A stretch of DNA of 40,608 nt from Elainella saxicola E1 (GTDB lineage Bacteria > Cyanobacteriota > Cyanobacteriia > Elainellales > Elainellaceae): the NCBI GenBank assembly GCA_002796835.1, contig LUGL01000021.1, positions 48,023-88,630 of the forward strand, in the 5' to 3' direction. Both the position numbers and the translations under genes were made by a program. A model generated the notes under the pieces. That model ran no database searches, was not told the DNA's origin, and saw only the letters and a list, made by a program, of their open reading frames with translations. This document shows positions 3,317 to 20,997 of this stretch, in pieces; within the stretch, counting starts at the first letter, position 1; each line of letters starts with the position of its first letter.

Positions 3317-4576
3317 ATGACTTCTACCTCCTATGAACTGGTGCTGCGTCAAGGGCGTTTACTTCGGGCAGACGGCACGATCGATCAGGTTGATATTGCG
3401 ATCGCAGCAGGTCGAATTGTGGCGATCGGTCCTGAATTAGAGCCAGGTACTTTCGAACTCGATCTGGAAGAAAGTTTGATCAGCCCCCCGTTTGTTGAAT
3501 CCCATATTCACCTCGACTCTGCCCTTACCGCAGGGGAACCTCGCTGGAATCAGAGCGGCACGCTGTTTGAAGGCATTGAAATCTGGCGGGAACGCAAACA
3601 GAATTTATCGTTGGAAGATATCAAAACTCGAGCGATCGAAACGCTAAAGCAACAGGCGATGCAGGGCGTTTTGTATGTGCGCAGCCATGCCGATGTCAGC
3701 GAACAAAATCTGGTGGCGCTGAAAGGATTGTTGGAAGTGCGGGAAGCAGTGAAGGACTGGATCACCTTGCAAGTGGTGGCCTTTCCCCAAGATGGGATTT
3801 ATGGCGGGCCGAAGAACGACGCGTTAATGGAAGAAGCTTTGAAATTGGGAGCCGATGTGGTAGGCGGCATTCCCCACTATGAATTAACGCGCGAGGATGG
3901 AGTCAAGTCGGTCCATCGCATTTTTGAGCTGGCGCAACAATACGATCGGCTGATCGATATTCACTGTGATGAAATTGACGATGATCATGCGCGTTTTTTG
4001 GAAGTGGTAGTAGCTTGTGCGATTCGATCGGGTTTGGGAGAACGAGTCACCGCCAGTCATACCACTGCGTTTGGTTCCTACAACAATGCCTATGCCAACA
4101 AACTGCTAGGATTTATTCGCCGCACGTCGATCAACTTTGTTGTGAATCCGTTGATCAACATCACCCTGCAAGGCCGCACTGACACTTATCCCAAACGCCG
4201 TGGTTTGACCCGCGTGAAAGAACTTTGGCAGCAAGGCACCAATGTCAGCTTAGGACATGACTGTGTGCAAGACCCCTGGTATTCGATGGGAACAGGTAAT
4301 ATGCTAGACGTTGCCTTTATGCTGGTCCATGTGGCTCAAATGACGGGAATCGCAGAAATAAATGCTTGCTATGACATGATTACCTATCAGGGGGCAAAAA
4401 CTCTCAATCTAGCAAGTGACTATGGGATTGAAGTCGGAAAACCGGCGAATTTGATTGTGCTGGATGCGATCGATCGCTATGATGCCATCCGTCGTCGAGC
4501 AACCGTAAAACATGTCATTTCTCAAGGTCAATTGATTGCTTCAACCAACGCACCGCTGATGCAGTGGCAACGATAA
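3317..4576 (+). CDS. codA: Cytosine deaminase (amidohydrolase, CodA family)
   Basis: 419-aa cytoplasmic metal-dependent amidohydrolase predicted to convert cytosine to uracil and ammonia in pyrimidine salvage. It aligns closely with E. coli CodA over most of its length. Shared features include the metal ligands H63/H65 (ESHIHLD), the NQSGTLFEGIE segment, substrate-binding Q158 (AFPQDG), H216 and catalytic E219 (HCDE), H248 (SHTTA) and D315 (GHD). Numbering is E. coli +2. Oddity: the residue after the metal-binding Asp, D314 in E. coli CodA, is Cys here (C316). That site lies near the pyrimidine ring and affects specificity, so activity on another oxo- or aminopyrimidine or purine is possible. 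No permease gene is adjacent. Confidence 0.9.
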   Translation: MTSTSYELVLRQGRLLRADGTIDQVDIAIAAGRIVAIGPELEPGTFELDLEESLISPPFVESHIHLDSALTAGEPRWNQSGTLFEGIEIWRERKQNLSLEDIKTRAIETLKQQAMQGVLYVRSHADVSEQNLVALKGLLEVREAVKDWITLQVVAFPQDGIYGGPKNDALMEEALKLGADVVGGIPHYELTREDGVKSVHRIFELAQQYDRLIDIHCDEIDDDHARFLEVVVACAIRSGLGERVTASHTTAFGSYNNAYANKLLGFIRRTSINFVVNPLINITLQGRTDTYPKRRGLTRVKELWQQGTNVSLGHDCVQDPWYSMGTGNMLDVAFMLVHVAQMTGIAEINACYDMITYQGAKTLNLASDYGIEVGKPANLIVLDAIDRYDAIRRRATVKHVISQGQLIASTNAPLMQWQR

Positions 4577-4796: not shown

Positions 4797-7700
4797 CTAA
4801 GCGAATCGGTAAGTTGCCGTATTGCTCAAGCTCAATGAAGTTGCGATATTGGCTGCTGTGAATCCATTTGTTCCCTGGAGGCGCATCAATAAGTCACCAG
4901 TGCCGAACTGCTGGTTGGCAACACGGAGTTGAGTGTCGGTTCCTACAGTCACCACATCCACTTCAGCAATTCCGGTAATGCCGAACACATCTCCTCCTCG
5001 GCGGAATCCAATGATCGTATCTAAACCATCGCCGACGCTATAGCGAACTTCATCCCGGTTTGCATCCCCTAACAGGTTTATCCGATCGTTCCCCAGTCCG
5101 CCAGTTACAACATCAGATCCGATCCCCGGATTCAAATTATCAGTGCCATCTCCACCGTCGAGCGTATCGTTGCCTAGGTTCCCCTCCAGAATATCGTTTC
5201 CTAATCCGCCGATCAGACTGTCGGTATTATCGCCTCCTTCTAGTAGGTCATCCCCGTCACCACCATCCAATGTATCGTTGCCTGCGCCCCCATCCAGGTA
5301 ATCGATGCCAGCTTGACCAAATAGTTTGTCACTGCCCAGTCCGCCTTTCAAAAAGTCATCTTCTGTGCCGCCTTCCAGCCTGTCATCTCCGACATCGCCA
5401 TCGAGCACATCTTTCCCAGCTCCACCCAGCAGGGAATCATTGTCAGTTCCCCCATTCAGGTAGTCATTGTTCTCATTGCCTTCCAGACGATCGACGCCAG
5501 CATCCCCCCAGAGATAGTCATCGCCTAGGCCACCCCGCAACGTATCATTTTCCGATCGGCCATAAAGGGAATCGTCACCAGCTTCCCCATAGATTGTATC
5601 GTTGCCCAGACCGCCAATGAGTGAATCCTTGCCATCTCCACCCCAGAGCGTATCCAGTCCAGCATCCCCATTCAGGGAATCATTCCCGATGCCCCCATAG
5701 AGCAGATCATCCCCATCTTCTCCCCACAGGACATCGTTGCCCCCTTGCCCAAACAGCGTATCGACATCTAGGCCCCCGGCTATCACATCGCCTCCGGCTG
5801 CCCCCTGCAAGGTGTCACTGCCCGCTAATCCAGTGATGTAGTTTGCAATGCTGGTGCCATTAATCGTGTCAGGCGCTGCCGTGCCCACCATTCGATTGAG
5901 CGTGCTATCTGAAAAAGTGGTGTTGGGTCCGCGCAAAGCATAGGTTCCTCTTGTGCCACCCAGAGCGAGATTATTCGTAACCGCGTTGTTGTCATCCCCG
6001 ATCGACTTTTCCCGCACCCCATAACGGGCCCGATTGGTGAGGGAACTGCGGATCGTGTTGTTTTGAATCTGGTTGAACGTTGAGTAAGTTAAACCTTCAT
6101 CATAGACTTCGATTTCGCTATAGCGATCGTTCTCTAATTGAGAACTGTCCATCACCAAATTGCCGCTAACCTCATTCCCCGAGCTGCGCCGCAAGGCTAC
6201 TCCATACTTACCACTACTCAGAAAGCGGTTGTTCTGAATTGTGTTCATCCCTTCTTCTGGGATATAGATACCGTTGCCCTGATTGGCCACCACTTCATTG
6301 TCGGTGATTTCCAGCTTGCGGCTACCCGTTTGAATCGTGATGCCATTCCCGCCATTTCCTACACTCACGTTATTGATTAAGCGGCTATTCTGCGCTTCCG
6401 TGACAAAGTTAAAGCCATGGCGATCGTTCCCAACCACTAAATTCTTTTCGAGCAGTGAGTCGATTACCTTATCTAGGGCCATTCCATCTAGACCACTCGA
6501 TTCAACAATGTTGTTGCGGATCGTGAGATTGCGCGTTGCAGTACCCGTCCGAGAGTTCTCATGCGGATCCATGCCATAGGAAGGGGTATTCCGAATGTAC
6601 AGATTCTCGAATTTGCTGTTGTTATAGGTGCCGTAGATGCCATATTTATCGTTTTTCAGGGACTGGTTGACTCGATTCCCATCTAATTGCAAATCAGAAA
6701 TCGTCACATTCGAGACATCAATGTCTGAACTCAGGCCAGCGTTGCCTTGACTGCGGATGATACCAGCTAGATTAAGATCCGTTTGGTCAGCCAGCCTCAA
6801 TTTTGTCGTCCACCCTGTTCCCTTCAGTGCAACATTATTTTTCACCAAAATATTGCTCGACAGGTTGTAAATGCCTGGTAGCAATAAAACGGTACCCCCT
6901 CCTGCTGCATTCACTTCTGCGATCGCCCGATTGATCACGCTCTGATCGTTCGTCCCGGTAGCCCGATAGTTGGCTTGCGCGGCTCTGGTCGGATCAGTAT
7001 TGTCTGCTGCAACGACGATCGTAAGGTTATTGGTTTGTGGCGGGAAAGAGATATTGGGGACCTGATGGACATAAGTATTCACCTGGAAAGTGCCGCCGCT
7101 AGGATTATTTGCCCCATCGTAGCGCTGGCCATAGGTGCGGTAATCGGTACCACCCGGACTGAGAGAATGCCAAATGCTGGCAAATCCGCCGTTCGGTAAA
7201 CCCGTTACCGCAGCGGGAGCTTGATCTTGCGTGGTAAAGCTACTGATCTGAAATTCATTGCCAACGGCAGTCCCATTGCTGCTATAGCGACGACCCATGA
7301 CAGTATAGTCACCATTAAATTGACTTTGCGATCGCCAGTTGATCGCAAATCCACCGTCACTCAGTGCGGTCACCACTGGATTCTTCTGATTGGCGATCGT
7401 GCTGTTATTGACTAAAAATTCACCACCGATCGCGTTGCCGTTCGCATCATAGCGACGAGCTACTACACCATAGCCGCTACCATCCTGACCATAGGAATTC
7501 CAGGCAACCACAAAGCTGCCGTCCGTTAAGGTTGCGGTCGTCGGCGTGTTCTGGGAAGTGGCCGTATAGCTGTTGACCTGAAATTCCCCACCAACGCGGA
7601 CTCCATTAGCATCGTAGCGTTGACCAAATACCCCATACTCATCCCCATCGCGATCGAGGGACTGCCAGACTGCTACAAATCCGCCATTATTGAGAGCGGT

Positions 7701-8270
7701 GAGTGCTGGAAAACCATGGTCGGGCGCAGTGGAAGTATTGATCTGGAATTCACTACCGACACGATTACCACTGGTATCGTAGCGCTGACCAAAAATTCCG
7801 TAGGCTTGTAAATTCTCGCCATCCGTTGAGTTTTTTAAGGTGGAGTCCCATGCCACCACAAAACCACCCGTTGCCAAACCAATCACACTTGCATGTTCTT
7901 GCCAGCTCGTGACAAAGGAGTTAATTAAGAACTCAGTCCCAATTCGGTTGCCGCTCACATCATAGCGTTGACCAAAAATGTCATACTCAGTGCCACCAAA
8001 ATCACGGGATTGCCAGGTGACAATAAAGCCACCATCCGCTAATGAAGCAACAGCAGGATGATCCTGAGAGTCATTCGTTGTTGTATTGATCCGAAATTCC
8101 TCGCCAACCCAATTACCGTTCGCATCATAGCGTTGACCGTAAATCCCCCAATCCATACCATCCTGGTATTCCGATTGCCAGACTGTGATAAATCCACCAT
8201 CTCGTAAGGTTGCTGCTGACGGAACAGGTTGCTTATAGCCTGGGCGGGTATTAAATTCAAAGCCAGCCAT
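4797..8270 (-). CDS. AlgE-like mannuronan C5-epimerase: seven-repeat domain + catalytic beta-helix + RTX
   Basis: 1157-aa predicted secreted epimerase, converting beta-D-mannuronate to alpha-L-guluronate in polymeric alginate (inference from family). Residues about 3-400 hold seven units of about 55 aa with the signature [18 protein letters not shown], possibly a seven-bladed propeller. Residues about 415-790 form a right-handed beta-helix containing YGMDPHE (Y565, D568, H570) and [10 protein letters not shown] (R617, H618), which correspond to catalytic Y149, D152, H154 and R195 of AlgE4. Residues about 794-1062 are RTX nonapeptides (GGxGxDxLxG), binding Ca2+. The C-terminal ~95 aa fit an uncleaved type I secretion signal, and there is no N-terminal signal peptide. 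AAGGAAGGAG precedes the ATG by about 10 nt. It is the last gene of the polysaccharide block, 497 bp after the second epimerase gene. Other uronan-acting activities are not excluded. Confidence 0.85.
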
Positions 8271-8767
8271 GTGAAAGATACTCCTTCCTTAAACTGAGAG
8301 ACTTCAAGATTGATGATTGATCGCATATTGCGCTGAGTGAAATGGAGGTGCACCACTAAAAACGCAAGAAATCTGGAGAAAGAAAATAGGATGAATGGAT
8401 CGTTGCAGATTTGGAAAGATACTTAAAAGCAATTGGGGTGAGACAATCCTAGAGCTGTAAACAACTTGTCAAAAAATCTCAGCGAATCAAGGCTCGATCA
8501 TCATCCATCAAATATCGAATCGAAATTCTGACCCAATTGACGGATCCACTGAGATCCAAGACCGTTTATTCAGGTGGAATTGTTGGACAATGGTTGCCTA
8601 TTAAATCCTAGATTCTGAATGAGTCGTGAATCGGCGGTCGGTTCCCCTAAATCCCCCTTAAAAAAGGGGGACTTTGAACACTCTTGGTTCGGATTCCTCT
8701 TTAAGGAGGAGTAGGGAGGAGCGGTTCGACTTGCATATAAATGCAAGCTCTTAAATCAGAGGCTGAA
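8271..8767. other. 497-bp intergenic region between the two epimerase genes
   Basis: No credible gene. The end near 8270 carries the strong Shine-Dalgarno of the RTX epimerase gene (AAGGAAGGAG). The end near 8767 holds a C-run/G-run hairpin listed separately. Promoter elements for the RTX gene could lie between, but I cannot define them. The size suggests the RTX epimerase may be transcribed separately. Confidence 0.5.
8653..8670. repeat. CCCCCTT/AAGGGGG hairpin, repeat-like
   Basis: A perfect 7-bp stem with an AAAA loop sits within AAATCCCCCTTAAAAAAGGG, a motif I recognise as recurrent in cyanobacterial intergenic DNA. It lies about 100 bp past the stop of the upstream epimerase gene and could serve as its terminator, although the U-tract on the minus strand is weak. 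Confidence 0.5.
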
Positions 8768-10516
8768 TTAGGGAGTGATGGTTGAATTTGGACCTAGCTT
8801 ATAGATTGCTTTTCTGACAGAACCAGAGATAATGTTATCAATGTAGGCATTGTAATCATCTTGACTGCTCTTTTCAGAAATGCCATATCGGTGACGATTT
8901 GTGGTATTCGATCGAATCGTATTGTTTCTCACTTTGTTGTTGGTCGAATAGGCGATCGCATCATTATCCAGATAGACGCCTGAGTATTTATCATGTAATG
9001 CTTGACCGTTATTTTCGATCGTATTGTTATCAACAAATGAGTAAGATGTGCCCCTTAAGCGAACCCCATGATATCCATTGCTGAAAATGCTGTTGTTCTT
9101 GATTTCCGAGTCGCGCGATCGATAGACGTAAATCCCTTCCTTCGCGTTCGAAAACACCGTATTGTTCCGCACAATATTCGTTTCAGAAGTGCGACTAAGA
9201 TCCCCCCCTGGCTGCATGGTGATTCCGGTTGCCCCATTACTGCTGACAATATTGTTCTCAAACAAATTGTTGCGAGCCGCCGTCACAATGTTAATGCCAT
9301 GCCGACCATTGGAATCGCTAATATTGTCGTAGAAATCAGAGAATTGGCAATTGTCGGTAGTCATCCCATCCACTTTGTTATGGTCGGTGAGACTATCTTT
9401 GATCGTCAGGCGCACAGTAGGGGTACCCGCATAATAGTTTTCATGCGGGTCAAATCCATAATGGGGAAAATCATGAATGCGCAGATCTTCAAAACTACTA
9501 TCGAGATAGGTGCCGTAATTACCATAACTATCGTCATAATCCGTGCCCTGATCCTTATTGCCATCCAGGGACATATGACGAAAATGCTGATTAGAGAATC
9601 TGGATTTTCGCAGGTTGTCTGTTTCAGACTTATAGGCCGATCGGAGCAACCCTGCATCTCGTAAATTTGAATTGGGGGCTAATCGTAAAATCGTTGACCA
9701 GCCGACACCCGTCAAGGTGATATTGTCGTAGGTAATCAAGACATTATTGGAAATATTGTAGTTTCCTTCCATCAGCACAATCGTTCCACCGCCTCGATTC
9801 CCCATGCTGGCGATCGCCTGATTGATCACTGTCTGATCGCTGGTGCCTGTACACCGAAAGTCTGCTGAACTGGCAAATTCTGAGTTTTGCGCTGCCACTG
9901 AAATGGTATTCGGGGCATTATGGGGCTGGAAATTGAGCTGATATTCTGACTTGGCATAGCGGGGATTGCCTGTAATACTGCTCGGCGTAACCCGCACGTA
10001 ATAGGTTCCTGCTGCCAGAGAGGCCGTCAATGTTCCACCCGTTTTCGTACTATCGGCAGCGTCCCAGGTCGTCCCGCTATTCGTCGCACTTTTGAGGACA
10101 TTACCACCACTGTCCAGCAGATCGATCGTATTGCCTGCGCTTAAACCATCCAAGAAGACACTGAATAAATCAGCATTATTCAAGCTGAACTGATAGTAAT
10201 CCGCCGGATCAGACGCATTCACCGTCCCTTTTAGCGAATAATATCCTGTGATCGCACCAAGGCTGGTGGCCTCGCCCAGTGTATTACCTCCATCTAGCAA
10301 TACTGTGTTACCGTCACTGCTTAAGGTGCGATGGGTTGCCCCCCCTTTAGTTCGCTTTTTATGATTTTGTTGAGCTGCTCGCCAGCGCTGATTTCTGGTT
10401 AATAGTCCTCCTGTTTGATCGGATTGACCTGAAAAGAACCGAGAACTGCCTGAGGTCAGCGCGTCAGCCGCACTCGATCGTTTGAATAAATTAAGCTGAA
10501 TGTTTTCCTTCGCCAT
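8768..10516 (-). CDS. Mannuronan C5-epimerase-like protein with N-terminal PPC-like domain
   Basis: 582 aa. Residues 1-70 are basic and polar with no signal peptide or TM. Residues about 75-196 resemble a bacterial pre-peptidase C-terminal (PPC) beta-sandwich, with DPADYYQFSL and LAAGTYYVRV. Residues about 200-582 are a parallel beta-helix with the epimerase signature YGFDPHE (Y353, D356, H358) and NGRHGINIVT (R405, H406), the same set as AlgE4 Y149/D152/H154/R195. The H-to-R spacing of 47 is identical to the neighbouring RTX epimerase, so the two are paralogues. Likely role: epimerising mannuronan during or after export. It has no RTX repeats or Sec/Tat signal, so its export route is unclear. 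The Shine-Dalgarno is weak. It lies 252 bp downstream of the mannuronan synthase gene. Confidence 0.83.
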   Translation of the reverse strand: MAKENIQLNLFKRSSAADALTSGSSRFFSGQSDQTGGLLTRNQRWRAAQQNHKKRTKGGATHRTLSSDGNTVLLDGGNTLGEATSLGAITGYYSLKGTVNASDPADYYQFSLNNADLFSVFLDGLSAGNTIDLLDSGGNVLKSATNSGTTWDAADSTKTGGTLTASLAAGTYYVRVTPSSITGNPRYAKSEYQLNFQPHNAPNTISVAAQNSEFASSADFRCTGTSDQTVINQAIASMGNRGGGTIVLMEGNYNISNNVLITYDNITLTGVGWSTILRLAPNSNLRDAGLLRSAYKSETDNLRKSRFSNQHFRHMSLDGNKDQGTDYDDSYGNYGTYLDSSFEDLRIHDFPHYGFDPHENYYAGTPTVRLTIKDSLTDHNKVDGMTTDNCQFSDFYDNISDSNGRHGINIVTAARNNLFENNIVSSNGATGITMQPGGDLSRTSETNIVRNNTVFSNAKEGIYVYRSRDSEIKNNSIFSNGYHGVRLRGTSYSFVDNNTIENNGQALHDKYSGVYLDNDAIAYSTNNKVRNNTIRSNTTNRHRYGISEKSSQDDYNAYIDNIISGSVRKAIYKLGPNSTITP

Positions 10517-10768
10517 AAAGAGCCATCACATGTAATTGGGTAGTACAGACTAAGATGAGGCTGGATCGGCCATCATTTGTATTCGTCTCACAGTCATCGA
10601 ATATGCCACGCCTAATTTTTCTGATCTGAGACGACACATATCAGAAGTTCGTAGATGCCAGCGTCAGCATTGCCGCAGAATAGCTGATTCCAGAAATTGC
10701 AACCAGAAATGGATGTACCGGGATAGACTTCATCCATTCCATCCAATTGCCGTTTTGAAATCTCGATT

Positions 10769-12952
10769 CTACGAGAGTGAACTGCCCCTGATATGCGTAT
10801 CGGTGGTGTCAATTTGGACCAACTTTTTGCCTTGAGCAGTGTTGCCAATGTTGACATATTCCACCACTACGTTCTGAGTTGAATGCAAGACAATACCGTA
10901 ATGTAAAGCTCGTTCGATATTGATCTGTTTCAACGATGCCTGATTCACATTCCTCAAAAGAATTCCATCTAACTGGGATTGCTGCGTCCGATCGGCACCG
11001 AGTTGCAGCGTAAATCCCTGTAGATGAATGTCATGGACGTTCGTAAATGCAGTTGGGATGACTTCCAGTTCTTCGTCGAGTTCTTCGTTTTCGCGATCGC
11101 CTATCTCCGGACCGATCTGTAATGCAGCCTGACTATGGCCTTCCGATGGGTGATCAAATTTCACCGCCAAAATTGTTCGATCGATCCCCTGTCCATTCAA
11201 AATGGTCAAACTGCGATCGAGATCAACGGGATGAAACAGGTCAATTTCACCGATCGGCAAATTGATTTGATAAATCCCTTCTTTGGTGGAAAGATCATCA
11301 ATCAACGTTTGCAGTGCTTGCGCATCATCCTGATTATCATCTGCAATCACACCATAGTGAGTGGCCAGCACCTTCGTAATCGTTACATCCGGCTGAGGTT
11401 GCCAGGACAGCCAAAGCTCATTCACCGTTTGAACTGGATTGAGGATTCCCAGCAACGAAAACAGCACCACTCCAAAGGTAAAGGCTTGAGTCAACAATAA
11501 AAAGCGAGAGGTGTTTTTGGTGACGAACTGCACCCAGGGATTGCCACCCACCGAAAGTTTACGATCGCCCCGGTTAAACCAACGCTGCTGAGCCAGGTTC
11601 ATTTGCGTCCAGATTTTAATCAGTGCAGAAGACCATTGAGAAAGCAGCAGGATAGGCAAATGCAGTGGCTTTAAGTGAGATTCTCGTCCCCAGAAAATCA
11701 GGGTTAAGGTGAGCGATCGGCTAAACACCATCCAGCAGAGCAAAATTCCTGCTGGCAGCCAGTGCCGTTGCAACAAGGCAATCAGCAGCAAGCAAGGAGA
11801 AATCAGCGATGTCCACATATTGGTGCGCTGATCCAGCAGGCAAAGCGTGACAAATAATCCCAGCTTTCCAGGCCCTAAAGCCAGGGCTCGGTTGCCATTG
11901 CGGAGCATATTACCAAACCAGCGCCGCATATTCTGGTACATGCGATTAGGCAATGACCCAGAAATACTTTCAATGGAATAGATGACGACATCAGGTAGGT
12001 AGATTAGATCGTAATTTCGATTTTTGAGCATCCAATACCAGGTCGTTTTATCATCCCCAGAAAGAAACTTGAACCGTCCCCACAGCCAGTCATCCAGCAT
12101 ATCGGATTCTAACTGATCGGCAAAATCTGGGTGTAAGGCCGCTTCACTGCGATAGAGCGAAAATCGACCGGTCAGACACAGCACCTTTTTGGAAAGGGCG
12201 ATCGAGCACATTTGATAATGCCGCTGAGCAAACCGCAGATGAAACCATTCTGAAAAAATATAGGAACCAACCACCACAGGAATTTCATCGGTTGTTAAAG
12301 CTCCTAATTTGGGAAACAGGCGAAAGAAGGGGAGGCTCCGCCGCAAGGTGCCCGGTGAAAACTCTGAGTCTCCATCCATCAGGGCAATCACTGTCTCTTG
12401 AGGCAAATTCAGTCCTGCAATCACCCGCAATCCAACAGACAATGCTTTGCGTTTACCATCACCCGGATCGATCGCATGCACCACCCGAACCGATGAAAGG
12501 TCTGGATCACCCAAACGTAATGCCTCAACGATCGCCGCATCTTCTTCTGCACCGCTGCTGACTGTCACGATCGTCACGGGTTGCCCTAACTGCCGCGCTT
12601 CCAGACCGATCGAACGGAAAACCCGTTCTGTAATCCAGGGTTTTTCTTTAAAGGTGGGAATCAACAAACAGACCGGCGGTAGTTCCTCAACTGGAATGGC
12701 ATTGGCTCGACGACGCCATCGGGGAAAAACCAAATGCTGATAAATTAGCCACCGCACAATGTGTAGCCCAAACCAGCTCCAACGCCAAATGCCCACAACG
12801 CCCAGGCTAATTAAGCCCGTCCAACCGAGCGCCGCCAATTTTGCTGGATCGCGTAAGACACAAAGTCCGAAGAAGCTAACCGCTGCGATCAGTAAGACAG
12901 CAACTTGGTTGAGCATTACATTGAGTTGATCTGAAGATTTTGATTGACTCAT
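10769..12952 (-). CDS. alg8: Mannuronan synthase (Alg8-like GT2) fused to a beta-helix-like domain
   Basis: 727-aa inner-membrane glycosyltransferase predicted to polymerise GDP-mannuronate. TMs lie at about residues 11-30 and 45-72; the GT2 domain is at about 90-350. It has PGDGKRKAL (163-171), MDGDSEF (192-198), a long Alg8-type block at 234-265 (SEWFHLRFAQRH, CSIALSKKVL, TGRFSLYR), GDDK (299-302) and RRWFGN (343-348), then a further TM cluster at about 364-505. This part matches Pseudomonas Alg8 (about 494 aa) closely, including LFVTLCLLDQRTNMWTSLI. Residues about 525-727 are extra. They open like a pectate-lyase-type beta-helix (HYGVIADDNQDDAQALQTLI) and continue with short beta-rung repeats; by topology this part could be periplasmic. 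No clear Shine-Dalgarno. Downstream frames hint at a frame-disrupted C-terminus. Confidence 0.9.
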   Translation of the reverse strand: MSQSKSSDQLNVMLNQVAVLLIAAVSFFGLCVLRDPAKLAALGWTGLISLGVVGIWRWSWFGLHIVRWLIYQHLVFPRWRRRANAIPVEELPPVCLLIPTFKEKPWITERVFRSIGLEARQLGQPVTIVTVSSGAEEDAAIVEALRLGDPDLSSVRVVHAIDPGDGKRKALSVGLRVIAGLNLPQETVIALMDGDSEFSPGTLRRSLPFFRLFPKLGALTTDEIPVVVGSYIFSEWFHLRFAQRHYQMCSIALSKKVLCLTGRFSLYRSEAALHPDFADQLESDMLDDWLWGRFKFLSGDDKTTWYWMLKNRNYDLIYLPDVVIYSIESISGSLPNRMYQNMRRWFGNMLRNGNRALALGPGKLGLFVTLCLLDQRTNMWTSLISPCLLLIALLQRHWLPAGILLCWMVFSRSLTLTLIFWGRESHLKPLHLPILLLSQWSSALIKIWTQMNLAQQRWFNRGDRKLSVGGNPWVQFVTKNTSRFLLLTQAFTFGVVLFSLLGILNPVQTVNELWLSWQPQPDVTITKVLATHYGVIADDNQDDAQALQTLIDDLSTKEGIYQINLPIGEIDLFHPVDLDRSLTILNGQGIDRTILAVKFDHPSEGHSQAALQIGPEIGDRENEELDEELEVIPTAFTNVHDIHLQGFTLQLGADRTQQSQLDGILLRNVNQASLKQINIERALHYGIVLHSTQNVVVEYVNIGNTAQGKKLVQIDTTDTHIRGSSLS

Positions 12953-13205
12953 GTTAGAGCGACAGCGAAGATAGCAGATGCTTTAGGTTGAGAATGAAAT
13001 CAAGTTTGCGTGAGATGATTTAACCCACGTCTCACTGAATTAGGGCTGATTCAATTTCAGCTGTAAGCGAGGGGCAAGATTGATAGGAGTGAAAAAGGCA
13101 GGAAAGCAACTCAACAGGCTAAATTTCTTAAATGACTCTGGAGGAATGGCTTTGGAGAAAAGAGAGCACATAGGGCCGGGGGAAGCCCCTTGAGCAAATC
13201 AAAGA
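12953..13205. other. 253-bp intergenic region between cupin and mannuronan synthase genes
   Basis: No credible gene on either strand. A small GGGG-CTT-CCCC hairpin lies just past the cupin stop (about 13177-13191) without a T-run. I see no strong promoter. Confidence 0.4.
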
Positions 13206-13631
13206 TTATGTTGAAGCAATTCGGGCATAGTCATCCTGATATCTCACGATATCGTCTTCCCCCAGGTATTCACCATTTTGCACCTCGATCAGAACCAGCG
13301 GCACAACACCTGGATTCTCTAAGCGATGCGCAGCACAAGCTGGCACATAGGTTGACTGGTTGGTGAGCAGGAGCGTTTCATGCTCCCCGCAGATGACTTT
13401 GGCAGTTCCAGATACCACAATCCAATGTTCACTACGGTGATGATGCATCTGTAAACTGAGGCGATTTCCAGGTTTAACTTCGATTCGCTTGATCTTGTAA
13501 TTTCTTCCTTCTTCCAAAACTGTGAAGGATCCCCAAGGACGAATTTCAGTTTCAGCAAGATTAGAAATGGCCGTTACCATTGCAAAAGGGGTAGCGTTCT
13601 TGCTCTGAACAGCAGATTGAGAAGTCGGCAT
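13206..13631 (-). CDS. Mannose-6-phosphate isomerase, type II cupin (AlgA/ManC C-terminal domain alone)
   Basis: 141 aa, equivalent to the C-terminal isomerase domain of bifunctional AlgA/ManC, which interconverts fructose-6-phosphate and mannose-6-phosphate. Motifs: RPWGSFTVLEEG (31-42), KPGNRLSLQMHHHRSEHWIV (53-72) with its metal-binding His cluster, NQSTYVP (91-97), HRLENPG (102-108) and GEDDIVR (124-130). The guanylyltransferase half of AlgA/ManC is absent, so GDP-mannose formation must rely on another gene. The ATG at 13631 is chosen over an upstream TTG because AAGGAAG lies 6 nt before it. The gap from the algD stop is only 34 bp, so the two are almost certainly cotranscribed. Confidence 0.92.
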   Translation of the reverse strand: MPTSQSAVQSKNATPFAMVTAISNLAETEIRPWGSFTVLEEGRNYKIKRIEVKPGNRLSLQMHHHRSEHWIVVSGTAKVICGEHETLLLTNQSTYVPACAAHRLENPGVVPLVLIEVQNGEYLGEDDIVRYQDDYARIAST

Positions 13632-13665
13632 TATTATCTTCCTTACACAAATAAGCACAAGTCAA

Positions 13666-14982
13666 TTAAGCAGCCTGGGCAGGGATCTGTTCTGCCAAAC
13701 CACCATGAGATTGCCAGGTCACCAGATCTAAAACAGGCTTATTGGCGGCATACTGTTGCAGCGCTTCGGTGAACTCTGAACGGTGCTGGCTGAGAATGAC
13801 TGCGTCACATTCCTTCAAGACCTCAGCCAAGTCGGTGCGGAATACCCAATGAACTTGCGGCAATTGGCGTTCCAGATATTCGCGATTGCTACCCAACATG
13901 GTGTTCAGATCTTGAATATCTGCATCGCAAACGCGGACTTTCATGCCGTCTTGCCAAAGTTGGTGAACTAGATTGATGATCGGACTTTCCCGCAAATCAT
14001 CGGTGCCCGCCTTGAAGCTCAAGCCTAAAACCGCAACGCTGCGAACGCCAAGGTCATGCACTTTGAGGCGAGCGGTGTCAATATGAATCTGGTTACTGGG
14101 TAGAACGGATTCCAGAATTGGCAGTTTTTCTCCTAAGCGATTTGCGTTAAAGGCTAGGGAGCGGAGATCTTTGGGCAAGCAAGATCCGCCAAAGGCAAAG
14201 CCCGGTTTAAGATACTTCGAGGAGATATTTAACTTGGTATCTGCACAGAGCAATTCCATGATTTTGTGACTATCGACATCAATCGCATCACACAGGCGGC
14301 CAATTTCATTGGCAAAGCCAACTTTGAGGGCATGGAAGGCATTGTTGACAATCTTCAGGACCTCTGCATCTTCTAGGGGAATATGGTAGATCGGTGCATC
14401 AATGCCGTCATATAGCTTCTCGACCATGGCCCCCGATCGCGCATCATATTCTCCGATCGCAGTCAGTGGCGGATGATAGAAATCATGCACAGCCGTCGTT
14501 TCGCGCAGGAACTCAGGGTTCATGGTTAAACCAAAGTCTTCACCCACTTTCTTCTGAGAATATTCTTCTAAAATGGGCAGAAGCTGTTTGCGCGCAACCC
14601 CTGAGAACACCGTACTCCGCAGCACAACCACATGATAGCGATCGCTCTGCTGCATACCATAGCCAATTTCTTTGGCCACACTATAGATATAGTCTAAAAT
14701 TGGGCTGCCATCTGGAGAACTGGGAGTTCCAACGCAGATCAAGGACATATCTGCCCAGGCAACATATTCACGACCATCTGTCACTGCTTTTAAATTTCCG
14801 TTCGCCAACCCTTGCTGAATCAGTTCATCCAGATCGGGTTCTTTGATGGGACTATAGCCACTATTGAACTTTTTGACTTTCTCTGCGCTAACTTCTACTC
14901 CAATCACTTCATGGCCACGTTCTGCTAAACAAGCTGAAACAACCGTGCCAACATAACCCAAACCCCAAACTAGAACTCGCAT
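13666..14982 (-). CDS. algD: GDP-mannose 6-dehydrogenase
   Basis: 438 aa. NAD-dependent four-electron oxidation of GDP-mannose to GDP-mannuronate, the committed step to alginate in Pseudomonas and Azotobacter. Rossmann motif GLGYVG (7-12); SLICVGTPSSPDG (80-92); NPEFLRE (155-161); FAFGGSCLPKD (262-272) with nucleophile C268, the same number as in P. aeruginosa AlgD; and KAGTDDLRESP (324-334). The last motif and LKPGFAFGGSCLPKD favour AlgD over UDP-glucose dehydrogenase, where FGGGSCFPKD and KPxTDD are usual. The ATG at 14982 is preferred because AAGGAG sits 7 nt upstream; the longer frame starts at GTG 15009. It is upstream of the cupin and downstream of the EAL-HlyD gene. Confidence 0.94.
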   Translation of the reverse strand: MRVLVWGLGYVGTVVSACLAERGHEVIGVEVSAEKVKKFNSGYSPIKEPDLDELIQQGLANGNLKAVTDGREYVAWADMSLICVGTPSSPDGSPILDYIYSVAKEIGYGMQQSDRYHVVVLRSTVFSGVARKQLLPILEEYSQKKVGEDFGLTMNPEFLRETTAVHDFYHPPLTAIGEYDARSGAMVEKLYDGIDAPIYHIPLEDAEVLKIVNNAFHALKVGFANEIGRLCDAIDVDSHKIMELLCADTKLNISSKYLKPGFAFGGSCLPKDLRSLAFNANRLGEKLPILESVLPSNQIHIDTARLKVHDLGVRSVAVLGLSFKAGTDDLRESPIINLVHQLWQDGMKVRVCDADIQDLNTMLGSNREYLERQLPQVHWVFRTDLAEVLKECDAVILSQHRSEFTEALQQYAANKPVLDLVTWQSHGGLAEQIPAQAA

Positions 14983-15206
14983 AGATGTACTCCTTATCAG
15001 TGTTTTCACAACTTAGGGTATAAACTTGACCAATTCACTAACCGGAGCATGCAACAGGAATCTTCTGAAAGTGCTTCTACCCACTCAAAGCGGCGATCGG
15101 CACATTCCGTAAAGAGCGGCACGCGCAGCCGCTACCAGACTTGCGGCATTGATTCAACCGCAACCAAAGCATCAAGCTTTTCAGCAGACATTTACCAGGT
15201 AGATGT
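14983..15206. promoter_or_regulatory. 224-bp region before algD
   Basis: Carries the algD Shine-Dalgarno. It also holds a short direct repeat TTTACCAG (15189-15196 and 15208-15215) next to the stop of the EAL-HlyD gene. No gene seen; an internal promoter is possible but not defined. Confidence 0.3.
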
Positions 15207-17459
15207 TTACCAGAAGTAATTGGGCGTTTGCTTAGTAAATGTCACATTGGTGAGCTGCCCTACCCCACAGAACTGCTGGGATTGATCCTGGCTGGATAGG
15301 GGCGGAATACGAATGGTAATACGGGTGACAGGAACTCCAGCCAACTGGAATGGAACCGAAGGCTGCAAGGCCTGAATTTGGGTCGATCGAGATTGATCCT
15401 CTGCCGCTTGGGCACTGCTAATGGGCTGAATCAAATCGATTTCTCCTGTTAAGGGTTCTAGGCCATGCCCCAGTTCTACCTTTACTGGTTTATTGGTATC
15501 AATTTGAGCCGCATCGTAGGAGCTAACCATGACCTCAACCCAAACATCTTTACAATCCAGCAGGGTCAGCAAAGGTTCAGATCGATTAATTTGCTCGTTA
15601 CGTTCTCGTTCGGTCCGATAGACCACCCCTGCAAACGGAGCAGAGACTGCCAGATCCTGCTGATTGCTGTAGAGCGATTGGGCCTGAGCCAGCCGTTGCT
15701 GGGCATTGTCCCGTTCAGTCGTTAAGGTTTTGACGAGCGCAACCTGTGCCTGAATGTTTTGTTGGAGCTGGGTCGCATCTTCAGCAAAACCATTGCCTAA
15801 TCCGGGTGATCGCACCATCAGAGTCCGGCTTTCAGAAACATGTAGGTCAGATTGAGCCATCTGCAGGGCTGCTTCTGCCTGTTCCACAGTTGCTTGAGCA
15901 GTTTCCCACTGGGCCTTTAACTGATCGACCTGCTGTTGTGAAACAATTCCGGCATCCAACAATTCTTGATAGCGATCGTAATCTAAACGGGCAGCTCTTG
16001 CTTGAGATTGAGCAGCATCTAAGGCAGCCTGCTGCTGGGTTACAGCCTGATTCGCAAAATTAACCTCGACGTTCCAGGTAGAGTCTGCTTGCTCTTCTAA
16101 ATGCTGCAACTGTGACTCTAGCATCGTTTGAGTTTGAATTGCTGCATTGATCTGTTCATTTTTAGTTTGAATTTCACCTTGGAGTGCTAACAGATTTTGT
16201 TCCTCTGCCGGATCGCGCCGCACGCGGGCAAGCACCTGTCCTTGATCAACTTCAACACCGGGTTTTGCATAAAATTTCGTCACTGTCCCATCAATTTGAG
16301 AACGTAACCGGACCACTCGTCCATTGATCACGCCTCCATCTATCACAATCTGATTCATGCGATGGTAGATAGAACTGGCTCCGACTGCTAATGCTGCTGT
16401 GCCGACAGAAAGGAATGTAGTAGCCGCCAACATTCGTCCCACAGGGAGCCGAAACCGATGGGGTTGTGCCGTTGGAGCCTTGCTACCCCGATTCATCTTT
16501 TCTGGAATCAAGAGCGGAATCTCAGCAGCAGCCTGGGGAGATTCCACCTGTGGCTCTGCAGGAATTTGCGGCTCGACTGGCGGCAGAATGGTTGGAGCAT
16601 CCTGGACAATCACCTGTTCTGTAGAATGCGCCGTATTCTCAAAGTTCTCTTGATATCCGGGTGTAGCAGGAACAACGCTTGTTTCCAATGCTGGGAAGGG
16701 AGCTAATCTCGGAGAATCATCGGGGGCATTTAGATAACAACCCTGAACCCCATCAAATGCTTTTGTCCGCGCCCAATTCAGCATTGCGGCTTCTTCGACA
16801 AACTTGACCACCACCTGCCCCAGGCAAAAGCGGCTCTCTACTAAATAGGAGCTGAGCTCTTCACCCGATCGCGTGATGAATAGTTGAGCAAGCTGGCTGT
16901 CCACCTTCACCATGCTGATTTGCAGCAGTTGGTCTCCTACCTGTTGCCATTGCAGATGGTCTAATTCATAGCTGGTAAAGTCATCGAGAATCACCGGACA
17001 TCCCAGTTGATTCATCGCTTGGATAAAGCAGCGTGCCGCCTGCAAGTTGGAAGCAACTGCTCTAGCACCAAGTTCAATGCTGAGACGTTTTGGTTCAATC
17101 TTGGCTGCTGTTAATGCATTTTGAATAAAGGTCGCCACTTGAGGGCGGTTAAGCGACTGTTCGGATAAATTAACGGAAAGCTTTAACTCATCATCCTGCT
17201 GCATATACTCGATCGACATTTGAATGATTTGTTGATCGAGCCATGCCATCATCCCCATCCGTGATAACGCAGGCAAGAATTTTTCTGGTAGATGTAACTC
17301 ATTACGACGATCGCGCCAACGCACGAGCACCTCATGATGCAAAATGAAACCATTCGTGAGTTGGTATACGGGTTGAAACCACAGCGCGATTTGCTCGGCA
17401 TCAAGAAAACCAGTCCTCAATGATGGAGCCTGTTCTTCAAGTCTGGAATTAATGCTCAT
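15207..17459 (-). CDS. Degenerate EAL domain fused to HlyD-type membrane-fusion protein (Alg44-like)
   Basis: Residues below count from TTG 17480; ATG 17459 is residue 8 and is the start I prefer. Neither has a good Shine-Dalgarno. Residues about 25-262 are a cytoplasmic EAL domain. It keeps EVLVRW (E50), N104, E136, D166/D167, K192 and Q246, but the Glu of AEGVE is Lys (K226) and loop 6 reads DDFTSYELDH. It is therefore probably catalytically dead yet perhaps able to bind c-di-GMP. A Pro/Glu linker spans about 265-345, with one TM at about 347-370. The periplasmic HlyD-like part has split lipoyl halves (about 391-424 and 608-640), a long coiled-coil hairpin (about 425-605) and a beta-barrel to 757. 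Pseudomonas Alg44 has PilZ-TM-HlyD, so position and architecture suggest a c-di-GMP-gated co-polymerase. A type I secretion adaptor for the RTX epimerase is the main alternative. Confidence 0.85.
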   Translation of the reverse strand: MSINSRLEEQAPSLRTGFLDAEQIALWFQPVYQLTNGFILHHEVLVRWRDRRNELHLPEKFLPALSRMGMMAWLDQQIIQMSIEYMQQDDELKLSVNLSEQSLNRPQVATFIQNALTAAKIEPKRLSIELGARAVASNLQAARCFIQAMNQLGCPVILDDFTSYELDHLQWQQVGDQLLQISMVKVDSQLAQLFITRSGEELSSYLVESRFCLGQVVVKFVEEAAMLNWARTKAFDGVQGCYLNAPDDSPRLAPFPALETSVVPATPGYQENFENTAHSTEQVIVQDAPTILPPVEPQIPAEPQVESPQAAAEIPLLIPEKMNRGSKAPTAQPHRFRLPVGRMLAATTFLSVGTAALAVGASSIYHRMNQIVIDGGVINGRVVRLRSQIDGTVTKFYAKPGVEVDQGQVLARVRRDPAEEQNLLALQGEIQTKNEQINAAIQTQTMLESQLQHLEEQADSTWNVEVNFANQAVTQQQAALDAAQSQARAARLDYDRYQELLDAGIVSQQQVDQLKAQWETAQATVEQAEAALQMAQSDLHVSESRTLMVRSPGLGNGFAEDATQLQQNIQAQVALVKTLTTERDNAQQRLAQAQSLYSNQQDLAVSAPFAGVVYRTERERNEQINRSEPLLTLLDCKDVWVEVMVSSYDAAQIDTNKPVKVELGHGLEPLTGEIDLIQPISSAQAAEDQSRSTQIQALQPSVPFQLAGVPVTRITIRIPPLSSQDQSQQFCGVGQLTNVTFTKQTPNYFW

Positions 17460-18192
17460 AGTGAAGCTATTGGATTGCAATGTCTAACAGAAGCGTTGAT
17501 GACAGCAGTGAAATAATTCCAAGGGTTTTTTCGGCAAGCCGATTCCCTTCAGTTTGCAGGAAACACAATGAAAGATAGTCAAAATAAAGTCAATATTTTG
17601 AGTGAAACCTGGTGCGTCGTATCCCAACAGCTACTTCAAAAGGTTACTGTGACCTACTGTACGCATGTATCTCAGAACAGGGAATTACTTAAATCAGGCC
17701 CACCTCCGTAATAATACTAGAACAAGTCGTATAAATCGAAGCTTTTCCATGAAGCTCGGATAAAGAATTTTCGGCTATCCAGTATAAAAAACCACTCTTT
17801 TGCAAACTTTTAATGAAGTCAGAATGAACTAGTTTTATGAAAGTCTGACCGGGCAACGTTTCTAGCGCTGTACGTATTTTCACACTTAGAAGAAGGTTGC
17901 ATCTCCGTATAATTTCGCACAGTTTTTAAGTCCATCCATCAATGTGTCTTTAAGCCATCTTGGTCATGCTCAGTCTAAAAAATTAGGGGACTGGCTCCAG
18001 AGTTCAAGCCTGGAGTGGAGCATATCCCTCGTTTTACCAACACTCAATCAAGCAACTGAGATAGCAATCCGATTCAAATTGTGAAAAGGTAGTGCGGACA
18101 TCTTGCCTGCGTTGGCACAGCTTCTCCAGTAGAAGAAACGAGACGCTTACACGATGAGGCAATTCCACAAATGATTGAGGACTGCTATTAGG
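17460..18192. other. 733-bp AT-rich intergenic region between the lyase and EAL-HlyD genes
   Basis: I see no gene I would defend. A GTG-started frame of 64 codons (17689-17883, minus strand) lacks a Shine-Dalgarno and recognisable homology. A degraded hairpin repeat lies at about 18092-18156. The size suggests the lyase is transcribed separately and that a promoter for the EAL-HlyD/algD genes lies here. Confidence 0.4.
18092..18156. repeat. Degraded copy of the intergenic hairpin element
   Basis: GTGCGGACATCTTGCCTGCG followed 30 nt later by GAGACGCTTACAC resembles the arms of the element at 4608-4665 (TTTTGCCCG / GGCGAGACGCCTACCCCAC). The arms are partly mutated. Confidence 0.35.
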
Positions 18193-19140
18193 TTAATCAA
18201 TTGCATAAACAGCAAAATTGGCAAAATCAGCTACGACTTCTTTCTTAGTTGCCCATGAAGTATCATCTCCACCAAAGAAGGTCGAGAATAAAATGCCATC
18301 AATTTTCAAGGCACGGGTTGAACGGAACTCCAGTTGATCCTTTTCTAAGCGCAATCTGCCATCAACCCAAACTCGGACTTTTCCATCTCGTTGACCAGGT
18401 TGGTTTAAAGTCACTTCCTGTTCAAGGTGATGCCATTGTCCAGGTTGAAATCGCCATTGTCCTCGACCGATCGATGTACCATGGGCACGACTGGTTGGCA
18501 GATAGGCATATACCTCACCTTGTCCGCGTTGACGCCACATAAATCGAGTGGAGAAGCCGTCTCTGCCGTTAGGAATTCGTCCCCCCGTGTTGCCTGTGCC
18601 ACCGAATAACCCTGGTAACTTCCCCCCTTTCACAAAGTCAAACTCTTCTGAAAATCGCACAAAGTAGCTTAACTTTAAGGCTTCGTGAGCACCGAGCCCT
18701 AAATTTCCATAAAATTGTGTGCCGCCTACCGGTGCATCATTTTCGCGACTTACTGTCGGGCTAGCTGACCCTCTGGGATAACGAATACGCAAAACTTTGC
18801 TAAATTGCCCTGTTTCATCTGCAATCACTTGAGCGTTTTGCCATCCCCAAGATCCTTGCCGACGAACATCCCAATGGGCTCTCCAATTATCTTCTGAAAA
18901 ATCACTAGACCAGAGTAAAGACGGTTCTATTGGTTCCGCTGGACTGGCTGAGGTTGAAGCAATCGCTCTTGGAATTGGCAGATTAGGAGTATTTGAAGCA
19001 AAGGATTGGGACGAGCAGCTACTCAATACACAGGAAAGCAGAAGCCCATGGAGGAGGGATTTATAATTTAAACGAAATAGGTCATAAGCTGAACGATCGC
19101 AATTACTTAATCGATAAAATACTCGGGTCTTATCAATCAT
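18193..19140 (-). CDS. PL14-like polysaccharide (alginate) lyase, predicted lipoprotein
   Basis: 315 aa. The N-terminus has a hydrophobic stretch at about 29-41 ending in a lipobox-like LSSC, so C42 could be lipidated, placing the enzyme in the periplasm or outer membrane. Residues about 75-314 form a concanavalin-like jelly-roll. GGKLPGLFGG (172-181, K174), STRFMW (197-202) and VYAYLP (210-215) match polysaccharide lyase family 14. S197, R199, Y211 and Y213 have the same spacing as the S/R/Y/Y catalytic set I recall for the PL14 alginate lyase AkAly30. Predicted reaction: beta-elimination of (poly)mannuronate. In Pseudomonas the operon lyase AlgL is PL5, so this would be an unrelated replacement. 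First gene of the block; glucuronan lyase is a possible alternative. Confidence 0.75.
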   Translation of the reverse strand: MIDKTRVFYRLSNCDRSAYDLFRLNYKSLLHGLLLSCVLSSCSSQSFASNTPNLPIPRAIASTSASPAEPIEPSLLWSSDFSEDNWRAHWDVRRQGSWGWQNAQVIADETGQFSKVLRIRYPRGSASPTVSRENDAPVGGTQFYGNLGLGAHEALKLSYFVRFSEEFDFVKGGKLPGLFGGTGNTGGRIPNGRDGFSTRFMWRQRGQGEVYAYLPTSRAHGTSIGRGQWRFQPGQWHHLEQEVTLNQPGQRDGKVRVWVDGRLRLEKDQLEFRSTRALKIDGILFSTFFGGDDTSWATKKEVVADFANFAVYAID

Positions 19141-19866: not shown

Positions 19867-20997
19867 ATGGAATTAGTTTTAAGCCCTGATCGCTTCAGCG
19901 AAGCATCATCAAAAGCAGTGTTTTGCAACCCTCAAAAAGCTGATTATTTAGCAGGGGAACAGCAATTTTCTCAACTGCTTGCCGTTCAGAATCTGGATGA
20001 ACAGGTCAATCAGCAACCCGAGTTAGTGACTCAATTGGAAAGCACGATCGACCACGCTCTCATGATTGCCTATAAGCATTCTGAACTAGAAAATATCAAT
20101 GAGAATGCCATTGATGTTAATGCCGCCCACTTATTTCTACAAAGAATCCTCTATCAGATCAATCGGCTGAACCTGTTCTGGTACGACGATCTGCAAAATT
20201 ACAAAAATGAGCGATCGTTCTACTTACAGCGATTGCGAAATCGCATCGAACACGCATGGCAAGCCTGGGAAATCAATCAGCTAGATGTGGTTCAAATCCA
20301 GCAACTGGATGTCAGGCAAGCGCTCAAAGATCGATGTGAAGCCGATCTGAATCCGCCTTTGACAGCCAACAAGCGCTATTTGCGGGAGGAAATGTCTCTC
20401 GCCGGGTACAAGCATTTATTGGCGATCGCTTCTCTAGATGGTTTGGTGGAAGCCAGCCGCATGTCTCGCATTCTGGGAGGAGCTAGCAACGAAGTCCAGG
20501 CAACGCTGATTCGAGTGCTACTCGAAGAATATGGTAATGGTCGTTTGAGCCGCAAACATTCCACCTTTTTTGCTCAGATGATGGCTGAGTTAGGCTTGAA
20601 CACGCAGCCAGAAGCCTATTTGGAAATCGTGCCCTGGGAAGTGCTGGCCTGCATTAACCACAACTTTTTACTGACCGAATGTAAGCAACATTTTCTACGC
20701 TACAACGGTGGCTTGACCTACTTTGAAATTGCAGGTCCGACGATTTATACCGATTACATGCTAGCTGCCCAGCGACTCCAGCTTTCTGATACTGCGATGG
20801 GATATTGGGAGCTACATATCCGAGAAGATGAGCGTCATGGACAATGGATGCTTAATCAAGTTGCTTTGCCTTTGGTCGATGAATATCCTGAAGATGCTTG
20901 GCAAATAGTTTTAGGGTATGACCAGGAAAAATGGTTGGGCGATCGAGCTGGTGACGCAGTCATTCAGGCCGTGAAGCAAGCAGAACAGCAGGCTTAA
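19867..20997 (+). CDS. Heme-oxygenase-like diiron redox enzyme (HDO family)
   Basis: 376-aa all-helical soluble protein of the iron-containing redox enzyme family (Haem_oxygenas_2 type), whose members use a non-heme diiron centre for oxygenations or C-C/C-N cleavage. The family domain lies at about residues 175-365. Candidate ligands are E220/E221 (LLEEYGNG), H231 (SRKHSTFF), E287 (TYFEIAGP), H317, D321 and H324 (HIREDERHGQW). Residues 1-170 are helical and less conserved. AGAGG lies only 2-3 nt from the ATG, an unusually short spacing. A methyltransferase gene follows by 180 bp in the same direction; the pairing suggests a small tailoring pathway. Substrate unknown. Confidence 0.8.
   Translation: MELVLSPDRFSEASSKAVFCNPQKADYLAGEQQFSQLLAVQNLDEQVNQQPELVTQLESTIDHALMIAYKHSELENINENAIDVNAAHLFLQRILYQINRLNLFWYDDLQNYKNERSFYLQRLRNRIEHAWQAWEINQLDVVQIQQLDVRQALKDRCEADLNPPLTANKRYLREEMSLAGYKHLLAIASLDGLVEASRMSRILGGASNEVQATLIRVLLEEYGNGRLSRKHSTFFAQMMAELGLNTQPEAYLEIVPWEVLACINHNFLLTECKQHFLRYNGGLTYFEIAGPTIYTDYMLAAQRLQLSDTAMGYWELHIREDERHGQWMLNQVALPLVDEYPEDAWQIVLGYDQEKWLGDRAGDAVIQAVKQAEQQA

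Follow-up and report, generated by a model that had tools for sequence, protein, structure and literature searches.

A candidate alginate-type synthase locus with an EAL-HlyD adaptor in the cyanobacterium Elainella saxicola

Comparison with described systems

Alginate synthesis by bacteria is known from Pseudomonas and Azotobacter, where the operon runs from AlgD through Alg8 and Alg44 to AlgA, where the lyase AlgL belongs to family PL5, and where the secreted Azotobacter epimerases (AlgE1-7) typically carry RTX repeats. Here, we describe a cluster of seven genes, all on the minus strand at positions 4797-19140, within a 40,608-nucleotide stretch of DNA from the cyanobacterium Elainella saxicola E1 (the window; C115:48023-88630 in a genome of 8.7 Mb). 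Judged from its sequence, the cluster is real and probably a functional alginate-type locus. In common with the Pseudomonas and Azotobacter systems it has AlgD, a synthase of the Alg8 type, A-modules of the AlgE type along with RTX repeats, a lyase and the likely product, whereas the PilZ-bearing Alg44, AlgK, the AlgE porin and AlgX/I/J/F are not among its seven genes, AlgA is represented by its isomerase part only, a PL14 enzyme takes the place of AlgL's family, and the synthase ends in a beta-helix tail. An earlier sequence-only reading had called the locus complete-looking, which overstates it, as AlgK, AlgX and an acetylation gene are not among the seven, PF13372 finds no AlgE porin and the pyrophosphorylase lies elsewhere. 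The same reading was right in recognising this cyanobacterial locus as alginate-type (the AlgD, Alg8-type, AlgE-type and PL14 families are recovered by Pfam, BLAST and PDB searches), in listing seven minus-strand genes, each confirmed as an open reading frame, and in noting departures from the classical operon in gene layout, in fused domains and in the family of the lyase. The locus departs from known systems in three ways: an EAL domain stands in for PilZ, the synthase carries a beta-helix tail lacking the catalytic motif, and relatives share the core without always having genes for AlgD and an epimerase.

Other described systems share parts of this arrangement. In plasmid operons of alphaproteobacteria (Loktanella, Tateyamaria, Rhizobium), algD adjoins the closest plasmid relatives of the window's Alg8-type protein (35-38% identity); in the two annotated operons, the genes that follow encode a hypothetical protein in the place of Alg44, then a nucleotidyltransferase for sugar phosphates and a protein with a beta-helix, to which Loktanella adds MBOAT and AlgF. 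Degenerate EAL receptors of the FimX/LapD type share with the window protein the EAL fold, a retained EVLxR and a degenerate catalytic loop, the difference being that here a transmembrane (TM) helix joins the EAL to a periplasmic adaptor that serves a polysaccharide synthase. The cyanobacterial XcsA-XcsB(HlyD)-TolC model of cellulose export likewise combines a family 2 glycosyltransferase (GT2) synthase, an HlyD-type adaptor and a degrading enzyme, with exit through TolC proposed and not proven (PMC12430437). There, PilZ sits on the synthase and the product is a glucan, whereas here EAL sits on the adaptor and the degrading enzyme is a polyuronate lyase. The receptors of cyclic di-GMP (c-di-GMP) that one review gives for synthases include the PilZ domains of BcsA and Alg44, PelD, PgaC/PgaD and BcsE (PMC8461298).

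For cyanobacteria, a phylum-wide survey reports no PilZ-HlyD (Alg44) architecture, no AlgF and no Alginate_lyase domain in any strain; very few strains had the domains Alginate_exp and NosD, and the survey suggests that the synthases use different components (PMC4594306). The window locus names candidates for such components and thereby makes them testable. The sequence-only reading knew of no characterised cyanobacterial system; this needs qualifying, as alginate was reported on chemical grounds for a Synechocystis isolate in 2023, and holds to the extent that the accessible part of that report names no biosynthesis genes of the strain (PMC10629183). Cyanobacterial GDP-mannose dehydrogenases also appear in a tree published for brown algae (PMC5778160). 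We recognised no published EAL-HlyD synthase partner and no cyanobacterial algD-alg8-algE cluster in the literature searched, with most subscription papers and bioRxiv outside it.

Precursor supply, synthase and tailoring enzymes

The precursor of the polymer is predicted from two genes of the cluster. The 447-residue dehydrogenase (13666..15009, minus strand) matches the GDP-mannose dehydrogenase structures 1mfz/1muu/1mv8 with 403 bits (E 1.3e-119), against 221 bits for the runner-up, a UDP-glucose enzyme, and contains FAFGGSCLPKD, whose cysteine is residue 268, as the sequence-only reading had numbered it, if counting begins at an internal Met-10 that is the probable true start. The motifs F[AY][FY]GGSCLPKD and K..TDD[LM]RES are present in 10/10 AlgD-type rows; of the rows resembling UDP-glucose dehydrogenase (UGD), 0/16 fit the patterns by which the script sought the motifs. 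In a 28-row tree the 16 UGD-like rows (two identical) form one starred group, while the AlgD-type rows are not shown as a single clade and the program warned of long branches. On bit scores, motifs and tree we reject a UDP-glucose dehydrogenase identity for this protein, an affiliation that had been named beforehand as grounds for abandoning alginate. Next to it, the 150-residue mannose-6-phosphate isomerase-type cupin (13206..13658, minus strand; PF01050, 170 bits) covers only positions 357-466 of the 467 in TIGR01479, so that the earlier AlgA/ManC label stands for the isomerase part and not for the whole enzyme. A stand-alone pyrophosphorylase domain is encoded outside the cluster (C88:89717-90751), as is a second isomerase cupin, on C181. 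GDP-mannose would be made by a pyrophosphorylase from elsewhere in the genome acting with the in-cluster cupin, and AlgD would oxidize it to GDP-mannuronate. On the Deinococcus aetherius plasmid pDAETH-1 (L121), an AlgD-like dehydrogenase (45%) adjoins a gene annotated as 'alginate lyase family' among polysaccharide genes.

The synthase (727 residues; 10769..12952, minus strand; PF13641, 94 bits) consists of a GT2 part (residues ~1-515), with motifs DGDS at 193, TTDE at 220, GDDK at 299 and QNMRRW at 340, and a C-terminal half beta-helix (~520-727). By BLAST, the GT2 part is 35-38% identical over 416-454 residues to Alg8 from three alginate-type operons, reaches only 22% over 203 residues (E 8e-6) with Escherichia coli PgaC, and has no match with E. 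coli BcsA. Its own genome holds 49 further GT2 matches, and the 11 of them that were compared gave E 0.15 or worse. Across 16 cyanobacterial and 3 proteobacterial GT2 rows, 68 residues are invariant. When the synthase was searched by tblastn against 72,556 plasmid records (E 1e-5), only 14 records matched, one of them the AlgF-containing Loktanella operon, and all 14 had an AlgD match within ~400 bases of the GT2 match. On these sequence comparisons the family is Alg8-type, nearer to operon Alg8 than to the other synthases compared, as had been proposed earlier; grouping with cellulose or hyaluronan synthases, which would have told against that proposal, was not seen by BLAST, with no BcsA tree in the comparison. 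A phmmer search of PDB with the synthase gave no match. With a profile, the matches were weak only: lyases and glycoside hydrolases for the tail, and for the GT2 part an enzyme of family 2 (E 0.09).

The tail, which the sequence-only reading did not mention, comprises the last ~205 residues and is present in all five aligned relatives, ending earlier in two of them. By hhalign, its profile (15 rows) is similar to the opening portion of AlgE A-modules (E 6.3e-5, probability 64.5%), and the alignment stops where HYGI pairs with SYGM, just ahead of the catalytic residues, the window protein having VLHS where the epimerases have DPHE. In essence, the tail reads as half of a beta-helix without the catalytic motif. 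Since hydropathy sets the last TM helix immediately before it, the tail is probably on the periplasmic side, where it would take up the growing chain as the synthase polymerises and translocates it. The same simple hydropathy method (cut 1.3) gave five peaks in 9 of 16 synthases, six in five (window included) and three in two; Alg8 is described with five TM helices (PMC8461298). The AlphaFold2 model of the synthase is poor (mean pLDDT 46.6).

Two proteins downstream are AlgE-type mannuronan C5-epimerases by sequence, with the YG(F/M)DPHE motif located in both, as reported before. The 582-residue protein (8768..10516, minus strand) joins a PPC domain to an A-module that matches AlgE4 (2pyg) at E 7.5e-40 over residues 224-581, with YGFDPHE (starting at 353) aligned to the AlgE4 motif. 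The 1157-residue protein (4797..8270, minus strand) has an N-terminal repeat region, an A-module matching AlgE6 (5lw3) at E 2.8e-37 over residues 440-789, with YGMDPHE (M for F) at 565 inside the matched range, and RTX repeats (PF00353, 170 bits; 11 matches to GGxGxD), which are not found in the 582-residue protein. Similarity to AlgG is weak (E 1e-6 and 7e-5), and the former AlgE/AlgG-type label is retained for its AlgE half alone. Both enzymes would convert mannuronate to guluronate residues, probably outside the cell. Residues 1-410 of the larger protein are built of DGGF..W repeat units that have no Pfam match and are 50% identical in a homologue from genome G012. At another locus (L041:632-3916), a single 1094-residue protein carries two epimerase A-modules and adjoins PL14 and AlgD.

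The lyase (315 residues; 18193..19140, minus strand) was assigned correctly to PL14 by the sequence-only reading (PF21294, 210.7 bits; PDB alginate lyase 5gmt, E 2.4e-30). An LSSC lipobox, seen by eye, makes it a probable lipoprotein, which would trim or clear polymer in the periplasm in the role of AlgL. KLPG, STR[FYL]MWR and YAY, which presumably hold the catalytic Lys, Ser, Arg and Tyr-Tyr residues of the family, are kept in 12/12 aligned PL14 proteins, including that of the window.

The EAL-HlyD adaptor and a proposed route of export

In the place of Alg44 stands a 757-residue protein (15207..17480, minus strand) in which an EAL domain (residues ~25-260; PF00563, 120 bits) is joined by a linker and a TM helix (~352-375) to an HlyD/EmrA-type periplasmic adaptor (PF13437, 51 bits). 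The sequence-only reading had called it Alg44-like, a homology we reject: Alg44 combines an N-terminal PilZ domain with a TM helix and a membrane-fusion domain, here EAL is found instead of PilZ, and hhalign against two operon Alg44 candidates, named by position only and forming a two-row profile of proteins without any Pfam match, gave 0.2% probability. In the AlphaFold2 model (five rows, mean pLDDT 62), the helix at 352-375 coincides with the sole TM helix given by hydropathy, and long helices over residues 425-605 form a long coiled-coil hairpin. Foldseek ranked EmrA first and EAL domains next. By VIA-align, FimX with c-di-GMP scored Z 23.1 (rmsd 2.9 over 227 residues), MucR and RbdA 23.0, and other EAL enzymes came close behind; because MucR and RbdA are tied with FimX, the fold does not tell a receptor from an active enzyme.

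All six fused EAL domains retain six residues of the ligand site (E, N, E, D, K, Q). In 6/6 the loop-6 G-x-G is lost and K replaces the first E of EGVE, whose second E is lost in four, and the second D is lost in three; ten comparison EAL domains all keep G-x-G and the first E, and nine keep the second E. In EAL domains, such positions take part in catalysis or in the binding of c-di-GMP. The pattern of FimX/LapD, a lost catalytic loop with retained ligand-site residues, is thus found in the fused EAL domains, which are predicted to be c-di-GMP receptors in which catalysis has probably been largely or wholly lost. That of the window, which would bind c-di-GMP in the cytoplasm, still has both D residues and the second E of EGVE and alone has lost the last E of ELTE.

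Adaptor and synthase occur together at 17 distinct loci in cyanobacteria, with EAL present in six and absent from 11. On the 16-row GT2 tree its presence needs five changes (starred branches force at least three), and 278 of 500 shuffles were as low, i.e. it is scattered. As the EAL domains themselves form one clade, a single fusion followed by repeated loss is the simplest reading: the six fused domains and one stand-alone EAL-TM protein make up a starred clade against 10 other EAL domains, with the stand-alone protein not placed among the six. At six of the EAL-less loci, PilZ, EAL and GGDEF were not found (E 0.001) in the ten neighbouring proteins scanned. The stand-alone protein (L047:18364-19293, genome G042) has a TM-like stretch, is 35% identical to the window EAL, has lost the G-x-G loop and has Ser in place of the catalytic-site Lys seen in the others; the next gene is psbA-like by eye, and no synthase was found in that genome.

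For export, an adaptor-to-TolC path is the simplest route because the adaptor is EmrA-like; its coiled coil would bridge from the synthase to an outer-membrane channel of the TolC type. A PF02321 search of the genome gave one two-domain TolC-type protein, on C180, with one further match lying at the cut-off. No AlgE porin (PF13372) matched in the genome at E 1, in a search of unproven sensitivity that recovered only 1 of 14 controls (Bacteroides ihuae).

Distribution among cyanobacteria and likely identity of the polymer

The synthase is rare: of 386 genomes from the phylum, its profile matched 6 at E 1e-60, counting that of the window. At E 1e-20 it matched none of 27 chosen non-carriers and did match carriers. 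Of these 27 we used 26 as controls, picked from relatives without a strong adaptor match, a non-random set with shared ancestry. PL14 occurs in 16/16 synthase genomes and in 1/26 controls (Fisher p 1e-10, ancestry ignored). AlgD, in counts that leave out Tolypothrix (L049), is clustered in five of the 16, present as a distant copy elsewhere in two (in Limnofasciculus beside glycosyltransferase-like genes) and absent from nine (G007, G018, G035, G038, G050, G059, G115, G169, G435), which have a UGD-like enzyme only, save for one 68%-complete genome with nothing at E 1e-30. In Tolypothrix sp. FACHB-123, the 18.5 kb surrounding the cluster contain no algD. Epimerases (E 1e-15) were found in four of the 42 genomes, each of which has a clustered AlgD; among carriers they occur in 4/5 with clustered AlgD (not G415) and in 0/11 others (Fisher p 0.003, ancestry ignored). 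At the level of loci, PL14 adjoins the pair in 12 of the 17, AlgD is present in five and an epimerase in four, a set that includes three contigs under 10 kb and one locus with split genes (L046). Clustered AlgD amounts to one change on the GT2 tree, as low as in none of 500 shuffles; because the AlgD-clustered side has branch support of 30/80 and an approximately unbiased (AU) test p of 0.31, its members are neither shown nor rejected as one clade. The PL14 protein of the single positive control (G011:C1:3484213-3485061), a genome without the synthase, is 55% identical to that of the window. At L046 (G035:C336), adaptor and synthase are broken over several open reading frames, the cause being either frameshifts or errors of sequencing.

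The sequences show which families the proteins belong to, how their domains are ordered, which motifs are conserved and which genes occur together, and from this we favour, with reasonable though far from complete confidence, a synthase-dependent alginate (mannuronate/guluronate) system. That its product is alginate, that c-di-GMP is bound, that export runs through TolC, what the tail does and where the enzymes act are deduced. For the window, alginate is the best reading because AlgD is clustered with two AlgE-type enzymes. Several points weigh against it. AlgD is absent from nine of 16 genomes with the same synthase, which therefore cannot always depend on AlgD, and since no GT2 column that separates AlgD-clustered from AlgD-lacking members passed our rule, likeness to Alg8 does not by itself fix the product. 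An AlgE porin did not turn up with PF13372, and c-di-GMP gating through EAL is not essential to the family, as 11 of the 17 loci lack the domain. The window EAL may retain residual phosphodiesterase activity, given the catalytic residues it keeps and the equally good fit of active EAL domains to its model, and both models are weak (mean pLDDT 62 for the adaptor and 47 for the synthase).

The absence of AlgD from nine carriers, together with epimerases confined to clustered AlgD, suggests that relatives may make another polyuronate; they either draw GDP-mannuronate from another source or belong to a family that also takes another uronate, and in either case the presence of PL14 in every one of the 16 carriers speaks for a polymer of uronates. 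Put more broadly, adaptor, Alg8-like synthase and PL14 might form a general polyuronate-making core, producing for example glucuronan from UDP-glucuronate in many carriers, with alginate made only in the lineage that has AlgD and epimerases. This we hold possible but on balance doubtful. It would fit the UGD-like dehydrogenase in 15/16 synthase genomes (at ~2.8 kb from the adaptor on Coleofasciculus contig L051), the need of the PL14 reaction for a uronate, the D-glucuronic acid bound in a PL14 alginate lyase structure (PMC3764139), and the single change that clustered AlgD needs on the tree. Yet no GT2 or, under the rule used, PL14 column splits the two sets, both of which share the 68 residues with operon Alg8, UGD is probably a housekeeping enzyme, an unrelated source of GDP-mannuronate could exist, and branch support for the AlgD-clustered side is weak. 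A cellulose- or hyaluronan-type polymer, with the alginate labels superficial, is very improbable: the HlyD-type partners proposed for a cyanobacterial cellulose synthase (PMC12430437) would suit it, but the synthase lacks a BcsA match and reaches PgaC only at E 8e-6, on which we rejected that class, and AlgD, AlgE-type and PL14 genes lie together in the cluster.

The remaining alternative leaves the product aside and makes the EAL domain an active c-di-GMP phosphodiesterase, a local off-switch of synthesis rather than a receptor. Besides the ligand-site residues, the window EAL does keep K, both D residues and, within EGVE, the second E, and MucR and RbdA fit its model practically as well as FimX; the universal loss of G-x-G and of the first E among fused domains, the partial loss of the second D and second E, the retention of G-x-G and the first E in all ten comparison EAL domains and of the second E in nine, and the loss of the last E of ELTE in the window alone make this reading unlikely. 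Should the alginate system with a degenerate EAL receptor be correct, it would put alginate from cyanobacteria on a genetic footing and make a valued polymer, together with dedicated epimerases, available from a photosynthetic organism. It would also be an example of a polysaccharide synthase whose c-di-GMP receptor has been swapped for an unrelated fold. More speculatively, the carriers may represent a cyanobacterial polyuronate synthase family with c-di-GMP control by a dead EAL domain in an EmrA-like adaptor, a pseudo-epimerase tail on the synthase and varied polyuronates, in which an AlgD-epimerase cassette was gained once to give an alginate lineage independent of proteobacteria.

Layout and neighbouring genes

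In gene order, from 19140 down to 4797, the cluster encodes the lyase, adaptor, dehydrogenase, cupin, synthase and the 582- and 1157-residue epimerases, with gaps of 712, 197, 7, 253, 252 and 497 bases between successive genes. The main domains of all seven proteins score far over their Pfam cut-offs, except that the PPC domain of the 582-residue protein passes by a small margin (29.9 against 25.9). On the Tateyamaria omphalii plasmid pDOK1-4-5 (54 kb), a gene annotated as heparin lyase I family (L055:6300-7250) lies divergently beside the alginate-type operon. The window cluster itself is flanked by plus-strand genes, one cytosine-deaminase-like (3317-4576) and the other matching Haem_oxygenas_2 (19867-20997).

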